This document shows, piece after piece, positions 28,221 through 64,000 of a stretch of DNA of 64,000 bases. The DNA is from Armatimonadota bacterium (GTDB lineage Bacteria > Sysuimicrobiota > Sysuimicrobiia > Sysuimicrobiales > Sysuimicrobiaceae): the NCBI GenBank assembly GCA_031432545.1, contig JAVKGX010000001.1, positions 70,411 to 134,410 on the forward strand, given 5' to 3'. Both the position numbers and the translations under genes were made by a program. How positions within the stretch are numbered: the stretch's first letter is position 1; each line of letters opens with the position of its first letter. The notes beneath the pieces were generated by a model. That model had not been told where the DNA came from, made no database searches, and saw nothing but the letters and a program-made list of their open reading frames with translations.

Positions 28221-29273
28221 CTACGCCACGACCTCGATCCATCCCTCCCCCGAATCCAGGACCTCACCCACCTCCGCGGCCACGCGGACGCCGCGCGCGG
28301 TCAGTGCCGCCCGCAACGCCCCGATACGCTCGGGCGCCACGGCGATGAGCAGACCCCCGCTTGTCTGCGCATCGCACAGGAGCACACGGGCTTCCTCGGA
28401 CACGGCATCGCTCCAGCGCACGTAGCCTTCGGCCGCGGCACGGTTGCGCTGACTGCCGCCGGGCACCACGCCCGCCCGCGCCAGCACCCACGCCTCCTCC
28501 AGAACCGGCACGGCCCCTACCCGCAGCCGTGCGGCCACCCGCGACGCCTCCGCCATCTCCCGCAGATGCCCGATCAGACCGTACCCGGTGACGTCGGTGC
28601 ACGCGTGCACGCCGACTGCGAGCATCGCGGCAACCGCGGGCCCATTGAGCTGGAGCATGACCTGCGTTGCGGATTCCACCGTCTCCTCCGACGTGCGTCC
28701 GTACTTGATGCCGGTCGTGACGACGCCGAGTCCGATCGGCTTGGTGAGCACCAGGCGGTCGCCCGGTCGAGCGCCGGCGTTCGTCACGATGCGATCGGCG
28801 GCTGTGAACCCGGTCACCGCATACCCGAACTTCACCTCGCGGTCTTCGATCGAGTGACCGCCGCCGATCACCACGCCCGCCTCGGTCATCTTGTCCGCAC
28901 CGCCCCGTACGATCTGAACGACGACCTCCCGGGACAGGTGCGCCCGCGGGTACGCCAGGAAGTTCAGGGCGAGCGCCGGATCCGCTCCCATGGCGTAGAT
29001 GTCGGACAGGCTGTTGGCCGCAGCGATCGCCCCGTAGGCGTACGGGTCGTCCACGAAGGGGGTGAAGATGTCGAGGGTCTGTACCAGCACCCGATCCCCG
29101 CTCACGCGGTAGACGGCCGCGTCGTCGCGTGTGCGCAGTCCGACCAGCGGCCGCGAATCGGCCGCGGCCGGCAGGTTGGCCAAGATGGCGGCCAGGTCCT
29201 CCGGACCCAGTTTCGACGCTCAGCCGGCGCAGTCCACCAGGCTGGTGAGCCGCACCCGCTCCCGCTCGGTCAC
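28221..29273 (-). CDS. selD: Selenide, water dikinase with selenocysteine (in-frame UGA)
   Basis: Makes selenophosphate from selenide and ATP, the selenium donor for Sec-tRNA and selenouridine. A frame starting at TTG 29183 misses the N-terminus. Reading through TGA at 29222-29220 gives 350 aa from the GTG at 29273, which follows AAGGAGG at a good distance. The N-terminus then reads ...LTSLVDCAG-U-ASKLGP, placing Sec18 exactly where E. coli SelD has essential Cys17 and keeping the following essential Lys (Lys21). Further family marks are TLDIFTPFVDDPYAYG, GGGHSIED and DAQTSGG. A hairpin lies 9 bases past the UGA codon. selA, selB and selC are not in the window. Confidence 0.93.
29192..29210 (-). 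promoter_or_regulatory. Candidate bacterial SECIS hairpin in selD
   Basis: Immediately 3' of the UGA, the coding strand can form CTGGGTCC / GGACCTGG with a GGA loop (five Watson-Crick pairs GGTCC/GGACC, extended by two wobbles and a C-G pair). Distance and position suit a SelB-binding element. Folding was judged by eye. Confidence 0.6.
29220..29222 (-). other. UGA selenocysteine codon of selD
   Basis: In-frame TGA at codon 18, at the family's active-site Cys/Sec position, with strong SelD homology on both sides and a good ribosome site upstream. Confidence 0.9.
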
Positions 29274-29354
29274 CGTCCGTTCCTCCTTTCGCAGACGCAC
29301 TCCCATTGTACGGCCTGCTGCGGCGGCACGACCGGGGCGCCGTGGGCGGGAGGC

Positions 29355-29383: not shown

Positions 29384-29392
29384 GGATGTGGA

Positions 29393-30322
29393 ATGCTCAA
29401 CGTGCACCAGCTCAAGATCTTCCACACGGTGGCGCGGGCGGGATCTTTCTCCCGCGCGGCGGAAGAGTTGCGCATCACGCAGCCGTCCGTGAGCATCCAG
29501 GTGCGCGAACTGGAACGGACGTTGGGCGTAGAGTTGTTCGACCAGATCGGCAAGCGGATCTTCTTGACCGAGGCCGGGCGCGTGCTGGACGAGTACGCGG
29601 TACGCGTGCTGGGCCTGCTGCAGGAAGCCGAGGCCGCGATCCGCGATCTCCGGGGGCTTGCTGGAGGGACCCTGCGCGTGGGTGCCAGCAACACGCCGGG
29701 TACGTACCTGCTGCCCCCGCTGCTGGGCGAGCTGCGCCGGCGCGTCCCCGACGCGGAGATCACGCTCGACATCGCCGGTACCCGGCGCGTCCACGAGCGC
29801 ATTCTGCGCAACGAACTCGACGTCGGTGTCGTCGGCACGGGCATGCGGCACGATTCCCTGGTCGCCTTCCCCTACCGCAGCGATGAGATGGTGACCATCG
29901 CCGCCCCCGACAGCCCGTTGGCGCATCGCGGGGAAGTCCGCGCGGCCGACGTCCTCCGCGAGCGGCTGATTTTGCGCGAGCGCGGCAGCGGCACGCGCGA
30001 GGCGGTGGAGCAGGCGTTCCGCTCGCTCGGTCTCGTTCCCTCGCCCGCCATGGAGATTTCGAGCAACGAGACGATCGTCAATGCCGTGGCCGCCGGCTTG
30101 GGGGTCGGGATCGTCTCACAACTCGCCGTCGAGGACACCCAGCGTGCCGGGCGCGTCCGGGTCATACCGGTGGCCGACCTGAGGGCCGTGCGCACGCTGT
30201 GGGTCGTGCGACACCGCGAGAAGCGGCTGACGTCGCTGCTGCGGGCCTTCCTCGAGATGCTGGGCGACCCGCAGCTCGTACAGGCGGCCGGGTCCGGCCT
30301 CACCGACGCGGGCCTGCGCTAG
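29393..30322 (+). CDS. LysR-family transcriptional regulator (selD-divergent)
   Basis: 309-aa LysR regulator: a helix-turn-helix in residues 1-65 (HQLKIFHTVARAGSFSRAAE... ITQPSVSIQ) and an effector domain at about 90-300. Segments such as GTREAVEQAF and GLGVGIVSQLAV resemble the CysB/CbbR-like subgroup. It starts at ATG 29393; the earlier frame from 29306 is not supported. It is divergent from selD (119-base gap), so it may control selD, but no clear T-N11-A palindrome was recognised there. The archease gene follows closely. Confidence 0.9.
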   Translation: MLNVHQLKIFHTVARAGSFSRAAEELRITQPSVSIQVRELERTLGVELFDQIGKRIFLTEAGRVLDEYAVRVLGLLQEAEAAIRDLRGLAGGTLRVGASNTPGTYLLPPLLGELRRRVPDAEITLDIAGTRRVHERILRNELDVGVVGTGMRHDSLVAFPYRSDEMVTIAAPDSPLAHRGEVRAADVLRERLILRERGSGTREAVEQAFRSLGLVPSPAMEISSNETIVNAVAAGLGVGIVSQLAVEDTQRAGRVRVIPVADLRAVRTLWVVRHREKRLTSLLRAFLEMLGDPQLVQAAGSGLTDAGLR

Positions 30323-33925: not shown

Positions 33926-35212
33926 ATGATCGACCTCAAGCGGCTGCGCGAGGACCCCGAGTACTTCCGGTGGGCGCTGCGACACAAGCAACGCGACCCG
34001 GCCCTGGTGGACCGCGCGCTGGAAGCCGACCGTGCGTGGCGGGCGGCGCTGGCACGCGTGGAAGGACTGCGCGCCGAACAGAACCGAGCGAACCAGGAGA
34101 TTCCTCGGCTCGATGGCACCGAACGCCAGCGCCGCATCGACGAGCTCAAGCAGATCGCGGCGCAGATCCGCGCCGAGGAACCCGAAGTCCGGGCCCTGCG
34201 CGAGGCGCTCGACCGGATCCTGCTGCAGATCCCCAACCCCCCCCACCCGGACGTCCCGCCCGGCGAGGACGAGCGCGGCAACGTGCCCGTGCGTTACTGG
34301 GGACATCCCCCCCGGTTCGACTTCCCCACACGGGACCACATCGAACTGGGGACCGCGCTGGGCATCCTGGAGTTCGAGCGCGCGGCGAAGGTGTCGGGTT
34401 CGCGCTTTTACTTCCTGACCCGCGAGGGCGTGATCCTCCAGCAGGCGCTCATGCGGTTCGCGATGGAGTCGTTGGTGCAGGAGGGGTTCGTGCCGGTCTT
34501 CCCCCCGACTCTCGTGCGGCCGCACGTGGTCCTCGGGGCGATGGGCGGGGCCGAGATGGACACCCAGCAGGTCTATCACCTGGCCGACGACGACCTGGCA
34601 CTGATCGGGACTTCGGAACATCCCATCGTCGCGATGCACATGGACGAGGTGCTCGACGCCCGGCACCTGCCGCTGAGGTACGTGGGATATTCCACCTGCT
34701 ACCGACGGGAAGCGGGAACGTACGGGCGCGAGAGCCGCGGGCTGTATCGCGTACACCAGTTCGACAAGGTCGAGATGGTCTCGTTCGCGCACCCCGACCG
34801 TTCGTGGGAAGAGCACGACCACCTCGTGGCCCTCCAGGAGCGCATCATGCAGCGGCTGGGGATGCCCTACCGGATCGTGAACATCTGCGGGGGGGACCTG
34901 GGCGACCCAGCCGCCAAGAAGTACGACTTGGAGACGTGGATGCCGGGGCGTGCAGACTACGGTGAGACGCATTCGTGCAGCAACTGCACGGACTTCCAGG
35001 CGCGGCGGTTGCGGATTCGCTTCCGCGACGGTGCGCAGGTAGACTTCGTGCACACGCTGAACGGGACCGCCATTGCCGCGACCCGCGCGATCCTCGCCAT
35101 CCTCGAGAACGGTCAGCGCGCCGACGGCAGTGTGGATGTCCCCCGGGCTTTGGTTCCCTACACGGGCTTCGACCGCATCGCTCCGCGGCATGCCCCGGGG
35201 CGGGAGGGCTAG
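33926..35212 (+). CDS. serS: Seryl-tRNA synthetase
   Basis: Class II synthetase of 428 aa. An N-terminal coiled-coil arm (residues about 1-105) is followed by the catalytic core with motif 2 (TCYRREAGTYGRESRGLYR) and motif 3 (NGTAIAATRAILAILEN). It may also supply Ser-tRNA-Sec for selenocysteine, relevant to the UGA in selD. The ATG at 33926 follows AGGGAG. A run of eight C at about 34237 is in frame. Last tRNA-related gene of the serine T-box operon. Confidence 0.97.
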   Translation: MIDLKRLREDPEYFRWALRHKQRDPALVDRALEADRAWRAALARVEGLRAEQNRANQEIPRLDGTERQRRIDELKQIAAQIRAEEPEVRALREALDRILLQIPNPPHPDVPPGEDERGNVPVRYWGHPPRFDFPTRDHIELGTALGILEFERAAKVSGSRFYFLTREGVILQQALMRFAMESLVQEGFVPVFPPTLVRPHVVLGAMGGAEMDTQQVYHLADDDLALIGTSEHPIVAMHMDEVLDARHLPLRYVGYSTCYRREAGTYGRESRGLYRVHQFDKVEMVSFAHPDRSWEEHDHLVALQERIMQRLGMPYRIVNICGGDLGDPAAKKYDLETWMPGRADYGETHSCSNCTDFQARRLRIRFRDGAQVDFVHTLNGTAIAATRAILAILENGQRADGSVDVPRALVPYTGFDRIAPRHAPGREG

Positions 35213-61356: not shown

Positions 61357-61764
61357 GTGACGGCGGTCGGGGGGCAACCCGAGCACGGCATCGATCGCCT
61401 CCGGACCCCGCGGGACTTCCGCCGTGTGTACGATGAAGGTCGGCGGCATGTCGCCGATCTTTTTGTCCTCTACCGGCGTCCGCTGCCGGGTCCGGCGCGC
61501 GTGGGGATCTCGGTCGGGCGCCGCGTGGGAACGGCCGTGGTGCGCAACCGGGTGCGGCGGAGGGTGCGGGAGATCCTGCGACACATCCCCCTGGGGCGGT
61601 GTCAGGAGGTCGTGGTCGTGGTGCGCCCGCAGGCCGCGCGGGCGGACTTCGCAGCCTTGCGGTCGCAGCTGGAAGCGCTGGTGAGGGAAAGCGGGGCGCT
61701 GCGCGCGCCGTCGGAGGGACGGGGCCGTGCAGAGGGAGACGATGGGCGCTCGGGTGGGAGCTGA
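61357..61764 (+). CDS. rnpA: Ribonuclease P protein component
   Basis: 135 aa from the GTG at 61357. The family signature [28 protein letters not shown] (read as several shorter motifs around residues 48-75) includes the RNR motif that binds the RNA subunit. It matures tRNA 5' ends. The GTG has little ribosome site. The frame is open back to 61138 through rpmH, and a TTG at 61192 has a GGGGA in front, so a Thermus-like longer form is possible. Confidence 0.93.
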
Positions 61765-61996
61765 AGCCGGTGGCGCGGCGGCGTCGGTTGCAAAGGCCGT
61801 GGTGGCGCTGATCCGCGTCTACCAGAAGACGATTTCGGCCTGGACGCCGCGCACGTGCCGGTACTACCCCACGTGCTCGGAGTACGCGGCGCAGGCGGTG
61901 ACGCGCTACGGCGCAGTGCGCGGGCTGTGGATGGCGGCGCGACGGATCGTGCGGTGTCATCCGTTCGCGCCGGGCGGTCACGACCCGGTGCCCTGA
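61742..61996 (+). CDS. yidD: Membrane protein insertion efficiency factor YidD
   Basis: 84-aa protein with the YidD core [23 protein letters not shown] and the C-terminal CHPF segment. It has an amphipathic N-terminal helix and helps YidC in membrane insertion. The ATG at 61742 follows AGAGGGAGA; it overlaps rnpA by 23 bases. Confidence 0.94.
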
Positions 61997-62024
61997 GCAC
62001 CGAGGTCTGACGAGGGAGGCAACC

Positions 62025-62831
62025 TTGTTCGGTTGGTTCAATGCGATCGTCTCGGTGATCAATGGGGCGCTGCAGTTCTTCTATGGCATTACGGGGTCGT
62101 ACGGGTGGGCGATCATCGCCCTGACGCTGGCGGTGAAGCTGGCGCTGCACCCGCTGACGCGCAAGCAGCTGCGGTCGATGAAGGAGATGCAAAAACTCGG
62201 CCCCCACCTCCGGGCCCTGCAAGCCAAGTTCAGGGACGATCCGCAGCGGCTGAACCGCGAGATGATGGATCTGTACCGGGCGCACGGCGTCAATCCCTTC
62301 GGGGGCTGCCTGCCGATGCTGCTGCAGATGCCGATCCTATTTGCGCTGTTCCAGGTCCTCAACAACGCGCAGAACTTCGTCAAACCCAACGGCGAGGCGC
62401 TGACCGCGGTGCCGTTCGGACCGTGGGACCTACTCGTGCACCCGATGACGGTCCTGTCCAACGCGGGCGGCGCGGGGGTGGGGGCCGTGGTCGCGTACGC
62501 GGCGGTGCCGGTCCTGATCGGACTGTCGACGTACGTTCAGCAGAGGGTTTCGGTGACCGACCCGCAGCAGGCCAGGATGTTCATCTTCATGCCGTTCTTG
62601 ATCGGCTACTTCAGCTTGAACTTCGCCGTCGGCCTCTCGCTGTACTGGTTCGTCTCCACGCTCACCTACATCGCGGAGTACCTGCTTGTCGTGGGTTTGC
62701 CCAAGCCGCCCCAGGCGGTGCCCGTGGAAGCGGCAAGGCCGGCCGAGGCCGCCGGGAGCCCCGGGCGCAGCAGAAGGCGCAGAAACCGGGTGAAGGCCGC
62801 ACGCACCGGGGGCGCGTCGAGCCAGTCGTGA
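62025..62831 (+). CDS. yidC: Membrane protein insertase YidC (SpoIIIJ/Oxa1 type)
   Basis: 268-aa insertase without the large periplasmic domain of Gram-negative YidC, as in Gram-positive lineages. Five membrane helices are visible, with the conserved LALHPLTRKQLRSMKEM cytosolic coiled-coil region and the MLLQMPILFALFQVL helix. The start is TTG at 62025, six bases after GGGAGG; no better start exists. Its stop overlaps the jag GTG. The basic C-tail (about 250-262) may contact ribosomes. Confidence 0.94.
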   Translation: MFGWFNAIVSVINGALQFFYGITGSYGWAIIALTLAVKLALHPLTRKQLRSMKEMQKLGPHLRALQAKFRDDPQRLNREMMDLYRAHGVNPFGGCLPMLLQMPILFALFQVLNNAQNFVKPNGEALTAVPFGPWDLLVHPMTVLSNAGGAGVGAVVAYAAVPVLIGLSTYVQQRVSVTDPQQARMFIFMPFLIGYFSLNFAVGLSLYWFVSTLTYIAEYLLVVGLPKPPQAVPVEAARPAEAAGSPGRSRRRRNRVKAARTGGASSQS

Positions 62832-63571
62832 GCCGCAGCGAACACCGACCGGGCCCAAACAGCGCGCGGGAGGTCGTGGCCACCGGGCGCACGGTCGAGG
62901 AGGCGATCGCTGCCGCGCTGGAGCGGGTCGGGCTGACCCGGGAGGACGTGGAGATTCACGTCCTCGACGAGGGGTCCCGCGGCGTGTTCGGTCTGGGCGG
63001 CAGAGAGGCACGGGTCCGGGTGGCGCCGAAGTCGGCCTTGCCGGAGGGCGAACCGGCGGATGCGGCTACGATCGCGGCGGCGATCGAGATCACACGCGGG
63101 CTGGTTCAACGAATGGGATTCGACGCGACGACGACGGGGCATGCGACCGAGCGAGGGCTCCACCTGGATGTGCGGGGCGAGGGCCTGGCCGCCTTGATCG
63201 GCCGTCATGGCCAGGGGATCGAGGCACTGGAGACGGTGGTGTCGCTGATGCTGGCCAGGTCCACCGGTGCTCGCACACACGTGGAGGTGGACGTCGCCGG
63301 GTACCGGACGCGGCGGCGCGAGCGGGTGGCGGAGATGGCGCGCCGCGCGGCACGGCGCGCGGTCACCGAGGGGACGGCCGTCCACCTGCCGCCGATGGAC
63401 GCGCGCGACCGCAGGACGGTGCATTCCACGCTCAGCGAAGACGTAAGGGTCACGACGCACAGTGAGGGTGAAGGCGCGGCCAGGCACGTTGTGATCCAGC
63501 CCGTCCCCAAGCGGCACCCCGGACAGGCGCGCAGAACCGACGGCACGGCCGGGTCCAAGCCCAGCAGATGA
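62828..63571 (+). CDS. khpB: RNA-binding protein Jag/KhpB (Jag_N-KH-R3H)
   Basis: 247-aa protein with three domains: Jag_N (about 13-63, with SRGVFGLGGREARV), a KH domain (GLAALIGRHGQGIEALETVV, about 115-140), and an R3H domain (MDARDRRTVHSTL, about 195-207). It binds RNA and influences cell division and translation in Firmicutes. GTG start overlaps yidC; stop overlaps rsmG. Confidence 0.94.
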   Translation: MSRSEHRPGPNSAREVVATGRTVEEAIAAALERVGLTREDVEIHVLDEGSRGVFGLGGREARVRVAPKSALPEGEPADAATIAAAIEITRGLVQRMGFDATTTGHATERGLHLDVRGEGLAALIGRHGQGIEALETVVSLMLARSTGARTHVEVDVAGYRTRRRERVAEMARRAARRAVTEGTAVHLPPMDARDRRTVHSTLSEDVRVTTHSEGEGAARHVVIQPVPKRHPGQARRTDGTAGSKPSR

Positions 63572-64000
63572 CCCTCGAAGAAGGTGCGTCCGCGCTGGGT
63601 CTGCACCTGAGCGCGGAGCAAACGGCCCGCCTGGACCGCCACCTGCGGTTGCTGATCGAGTGGAACCGCCGCATGAACCTGGTGGCGCACGCCCCGCCCG
63701 AACGAATCGTCGAAGACCACTTCCTCGACAGCCTGCTGTTGCTCGTGATGGCGCGCCCGGCATGGGGGTGGCGGGTGGCCGACATCGGCAGCGGCGCCGG
63801 TTTTGCGGGGCTGGTGTGGGCGGCTGTACGTGCGGATCTTTGCGTGACCCTGATCGAGGGACGCCAAAAGCGGGCGGCGTTCCTCGAGCGCGTCCTGCTC
63901 GAGACCGACATACACAACGCCCAGGTGGTGGCCCGGCGTGCGGAGGATCTGCGCGGGGACCCAGACCACGGCGCGGCGTACGACATGGCGGCCGCCAGGG
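63568..64000 (+). CDS. rsmG: 16S rRNA (guanine-N7) methyltransferase RsmG, 5' part
   Basis: First 144 codons of the SAM-dependent enzyme that methylates G527 of 16S rRNA; the rest is beyond the right edge. Seen: the N-terminal helix with WNRRMNLVAHAP, the HFLDSLLLL segment, and the SAM motif VADIGSGAGFAGLVWA followed by VTLIEGRQKRAAFLE. The ATG overlaps the jag stop. Adjoins jag as in many Firmicutes. Confidence 0.95.
   Translation, partial: MTLEEGASALGLHLSAEQTARLDRHLRLLIEWNRRMNLVAHAPPERIVEDHFLDSLLLLVMARPAWGWRVADIGSGAGFAGLVWAAVRADLCVTLIEGRQKRAAFLERVLLETDIHNAQVVARRAEDLRGDPDHGAAYDMAAAR

Follow-up and report, generated by a model that had tools for sequence, protein, structure and literature searches.

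A UGA-type selD gene probably stranded by recent decay of the selenocysteine machinery in a member of the Armatimonadota

Yersinia pestis CO92 has recently lost selenocysteine (Sec): its selB is a pseudogene, and an unreadable UGA is left stranded in a formate dehydrogenase gene (PMC1273633). In H. mustelae, a Sec-containing SelD is the sole selenoprotein (PMC4607533). Orphan selD genes are known from other bacteria and are thought to serve another use of selenium, such as a selenium cofactor (PMC5029168, PMC2276186). Among insects, readthrough without Sec has been proposed for the SPS1-UGA of Hymenoptera (PMC4561486). In the open-licence papers searched, we found no report of a bacterium that lacks working selA, selB, and selC and in which a UGA-type selD is stranded. 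Here we describe a selD gene of an Armatimonadota bacterium that is probably in this state.

The selD gene, its UGA codon, and its surroundings

The gene lies in a stretch of 64,000 nucleotides, hereafter called the window, in which we considered the following features.

28221..29273, minus strand: selD, UGA-type selenophosphate synthetase gene, 350 codons plus stop, open except for the UGA at codon 18
29220..29222, minus strand: in-frame TGA at the catalytic Sec/Cys position (residue 18) of selD, present at the same site in 29 relatives
29271..29290, minus strand: GTG start of selD (29273-29271) and ribosome site GAAAGGAGGA (29290-29281), read from the sequence
29174..29228, minus strand: region around the selD UGA and 3' of it; GGGUCC-GGA-GGACCU hairpin as a candidate bacterial SECIS, with the upper stem as in the family and the lower stem altered
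29387..30322, plus strand: LysR regulator, divergent from selD, best match NF040786 (listed ORF start, 29306)
33926..35212, plus strand: serS, seryl-tRNA synthetase, named from its sequence and position, in a conserved neighbourhood

The selD gene is present as a single copy in the genome, and an AAGGAGG lies about 8 nt 5' of its GTG start. The N terminus reads VTERERVRLTSLVDCAG-U-ASKLGPEDL, where U is the TGA at 29222-29220, and the frame then stays open as far as its stop, a TAG at 28221. If the UGA is translated as cysteine, the product matches the SelD family model TIGR00476 with 376.5 bits (cut-off, 125). A sequence-only reading of this DNA had placed the TGA at the catalytic Sec/Cys site of SelD and had pointed to the GTG with its ribosome site. 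The sequence bears out both, and the former is also in agreement with the TIGR00476 match and with conservation throughout the phylum. The catalytic positions were likewise assigned correctly: the UGA is residue 18, the equivalent of E. coli Cys17, and, given readthrough of the UGA, a lysine (Lys21) follows three residues later. The gene is indeed truncated by ordinary ORF calling, as had been anticipated, the first start found being a TTG at 29183 that gives a product of 320 aa without the catalytic residues.

SelD was found in 38 of the 43 genomes of the phylum, and every match covering the site carries exactly one in-frame TGA, with the exception of one divergent copy; the three matches devoid of a TGA are two C-terminal fragments and this divergent second copy, found in G030. 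All 30 SelD proteins checked have the UGA within the motif ACAGU or DCAGU, followed by ASK or, once, by AAK. At the same site, 80 SelD loci from other phyla have either a stop (28) or a cysteine (52). The serine at position +2, which had been read as a replacement of the usual cysteine, does set this protein apart from Cys-type SelDs, but it is not unusual for a UGA-type SelD: among the 28 outside UGA-type proteins, alanine (13) and serine (10) are commoner at +2 than cysteine (5).

G030 also harbors a compact second selA-selB-selC cassette (G030:C34:3962-8412), possibly acquired, which adjoins a SelD without TGA that is 44% identical to the query SelD. At other places, G030 carries the usual UGA-selD and selABC as well.

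The best model for the LysR gene next to selD is the selenium-metabolism-associated LysR NF040786, with 240.5 bits, just below the cut-off of 250. LysR, an archease-like gene, an aminotransferase, serA, and serS surround selD in a neighbourhood common to G035 and G036, and selD therefore occupies its inherited place. Judging from its sequence, the gene is a descendant of a UGA/Sec selD common to the whole phylum. The hairpin after the UGA is found family-wide; in this genome alone it has a z value of -0.55 and is individually not significant. As a detector of SECIS elements, RF00031 (SECIS_1) was discarded as uninformative, since it matched nowhere, controls included.

The state of selA, selB, and selC

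The whole genome, a draft of 2.19 Mb in 21 contigs that is rated 100% complete, was searched for the remaining Sec genes. No intact selA, no intact selB, and no tRNA-Sec were found. What is present lies outside the window, on contig 12:

L018:4498-7610, contig 12: selA and selB pseudogenes, flanked by an intact PHP-domain gene and by valS

Compared with G035, G036, and G042, selA consists of three fragments in two frames, with two frame changes and a 15-codon deletion. The selB-specific matches lie just downstream and form four fragments, with three frame changes and about 76 codons missing. The neighbours are intact, and valS sits behind a T-box-like leader. In G035 and G036 the orthologous selA/selB locus is intact and is followed by tRNA-Sec. 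The remaining selB matches in the genome were rejected, as their length and score resemble those of EF-Tu, IF-2, and similar GTPases.

Neither a pattern search nor R1, a covariance model based on 18 relatives (score in 33 relatives, 96-109 bits), detected a tRNA-Sec in the whole genome, and no remnant of selC was found in the spacer between selB and valS. RF01852 alone proved misleading for tRNA-Sec, its best match, above the cut-off, being a tRNA-Ser(tga), and we used the pattern and the phylum-specific model instead. The tRNAs matched by the Rfam tRNA-Sec model carry other anticodons, and among the tRNAs examined none has a UCA anticodon.

We then asked how far such frame breaks occur in other genes, by scanning the coding frames of the window, contig 12, and part of contig 8 (about 132 kb of sequence, of which about 123 kb is coding). 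In five frame switches, the upstream stop is at a distance of over 100 nt; all five are in selA and selB, and none is elsewhere. Seven weaker calls, with a stop within 100 nt, fall at gene boundaries or overlaps. Two of the selA/selB lesions remove about 45 and 230 nt, unlike typical sequencing errors; the others are small and, by eye, mostly located in C or G runs, which are sites of sequencing errors as well.

Positions 61500-64000 of the window hold closely packed rnpA-yidD-yidC-jag-rsmG-like genes (named by inspection), an arrangement typical of the vicinity of a replication origin. Frame switches at 61.7-63.5 kb, among these packed genes, were rejected as frameshifts, the stops being within 100 nt.

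The sequence-only reading had further held that the organism decodes UGA as Sec. This is not borne out by the whole-genome search, which shows a broken selA, a broken selB, and no detected selC; an absence of selB and selC was the outcome it had named as speaking against it. Of the genes it considered necessary (selA, selB, selC, and serS), serS alone stands; its product would charge tRNA-Sec, but serS is a housekeeping gene. Its view of selD as a selenoprotein gene is correct as to descent, with a UGA at the Sec site, but Sec decoding by the organism is not supported.

Other uses of selenium and formate dehydrogenase

The genes that would mark an orphan SelD serving another use of selenium, mnmH and yqeB, are both absent from all 43 genomes, the E. 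coli control being positive. No client of SelD except Sec synthesis was therefore found in the phylum.

A formate dehydrogenase gene with one TGA (UGA-FdhA) is present in G035, G036, G039, and G040. In this genome and in G038, none was detected at E <= 1e-60, a cut-off at which fragments could be missed. Directly downstream of proS, where G040 has its UGA-fdhA, this genome and G038 both have a TGA-free oxidoreductase of the FdhF/YdeP family. In this genome it is found as follows:

L251:7223-11887, contig 1: proS, FdhF/YdeP-family molybdopterin oxidoreductase gene, and fdhD in a row

This YdeP-type enzyme is 72-77% identical to those in G003, G020, G001, and G038. A switch of formate dehydrogenase may have made Sec dispensable, but genomes of other families retain their Sec genes alongside the YdeP-type enzyme. 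G038, which is 95% complete and belongs to the same family, has no match to selA or selD and no selB-specific match, and it reaches only 55 bits with the tRNA-Sec model, like ordinary tRNAs. It possibly represents a second, completed Sec loss in this family.

In G001, G003, G029, G042, and others, selA, selB, selC, and UGA-selD are present and no UGA-FdhA was found at the cut-off applied; their sole selenoprotein may be SelD, or further ones may remain to be found. In G039:C34 (L222) and G040:C14 (L223), tRNA-Sec is grouped with selD and an fdhD-like gene and directly abuts the contig end, so that both drafts lack selA and selB at the same point. A loss of selA and selB in these two genomes was considered and dropped, since the contigs of both end beside selC.

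Readings of the locus and comparison with known systems

We consider it very probable that a Sec trait which died recently has left selD stranded, its UGA now being a stop. SelD, being a component of the Sec system as well as one of its products, would be stranded once that system fails. A change of formate dehydrogenase could have come first, followed by relaxed selection and then by decay of the Sec genes. Because selA and selB are broken and selC is undetected, the UGA is expected to terminate, barring a second intact set in assembly gaps; translation would then give a 17-residue peptide and no selenophosphate synthetase. The rest of the selD frame would still be open because too little time has elapsed. 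SelD resembles outgroups as closely as the SelDs of its relatives do, and the broken selA and selB likewise match theirs in this respect, suggesting that the loss is recent relative to the age of the genus. Against this explanation stand the selD frame, intact but for the UGA, the unchanged motif around the UGA, a rate of change in SelD no higher than in relatives, and the draft state of the assembly in 21 contigs, along with the C or G runs that hold several of the small frame changes and the strict cut-off of the fdhA search.

The perfectly conserved UGA and motif would also fit a working selenoprotein whose intact selA, selB, and selC are missing from the draft or mis-assembled, and the contigs of G039 and G040 ending beside selC indicate that this locus can break assemblies. 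However, the genome is rated 100% complete, and selA and selB are present at the ancestral locus yet broken, with the deletions of about 45 and 230 nt among their lesions. Together with the lack of a tRNA-Sec, of frame breaks anywhere else in the scan, and of a detectable UGA-FdhA, this makes a working selenoprotein unlikely.

Alternatively, a near-cognate tRNA could read the UGA without Sec, and a full-length SelD-like protein could be retained for a function different from selenophosphate synthesis. In favor of such readthrough, selD is open over 1 kb while selA and selB have about six lesions in 3.3 kb, and the hairpin is still present after the UGA. At the lesion density of selA and selB, however, only about 1.9 lesions would be expected in selD, and the chance of none is about 0.15; as the loss also looks recent, the intact frame is no evidence of selection. 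Any coding conservation after the loss would have to be read from a single genome of the genus and over a span too short to measure it. Furthermore, five residues that are invariant in the other 29 SelDs are changed here (most others have 0 or 1 such changes, though a lone long branch inflates the count), and we found neither a UCA-anticodon tRNA among the tRNAs examined nor a SelD-dependent pathway. We therefore regard readthrough as very improbable. That a Cys codon was misread as TGA in sequencing, conceivable given how often SelDs outside the phylum are of the Cys type (52 of 80 loci), can practically be dismissed, since the same TGA recurs in all site-covering relatives except for the divergent second copy in G030.

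If selD has indeed been stranded by a recent Sec loss, the loss of the 21st amino acid would be caught here part-way, with selC gone, selA and selB broken, selD open, and intact relatives at hand for comparison. The locus would then exemplify how a self-dependent selenoprotein gene can become stranded. It is also a warning that a UGA in selD alone does not prove Sec decoding by the organism.

The gene shares family, UGA site, motif, and inherited position with the UGA-type SelDs of the rest of the phylum; unlike there, selA and selB are broken and selC is undetected, which leaves a UGA without a known reader. As with orphan SelDs, selD is found here without selA, selB, selC, or mnmH, selA and selB persisting as fragments; in contrast to them, yqeB is absent and selD itself requires UGA decoding. 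As with hymenopteran SPS1-UGA, a selenophosphate synthetase gene keeps its UGA in an organism that lacks Sec or, here, probably lacks it. The insect gene, however, is a conserved paralogue with evidence of readthrough, whereas here there is no paralogue and translation across the UGA is unsupported; we would give very little credence to a UGA SelD kept by readthrough as its bacterial counterpart. The likeness to H. mustelae lies in the loss of formate dehydrogenase (here, the Sec type is undetected) and in SelD as the last known UGA gene, but H. mustelae retains its Sec system while the one described here has decayed. In Y. pestis CO92, as probably here, a UGA has been stranded by recent damage to the Sec machinery. 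Y. pestis CO92, however, keeps selA, selC, and selD, and a client is stranded, whereas in this bacterium selA, selB, and selC are all affected and it is a part of the machinery itself that would be stranded.
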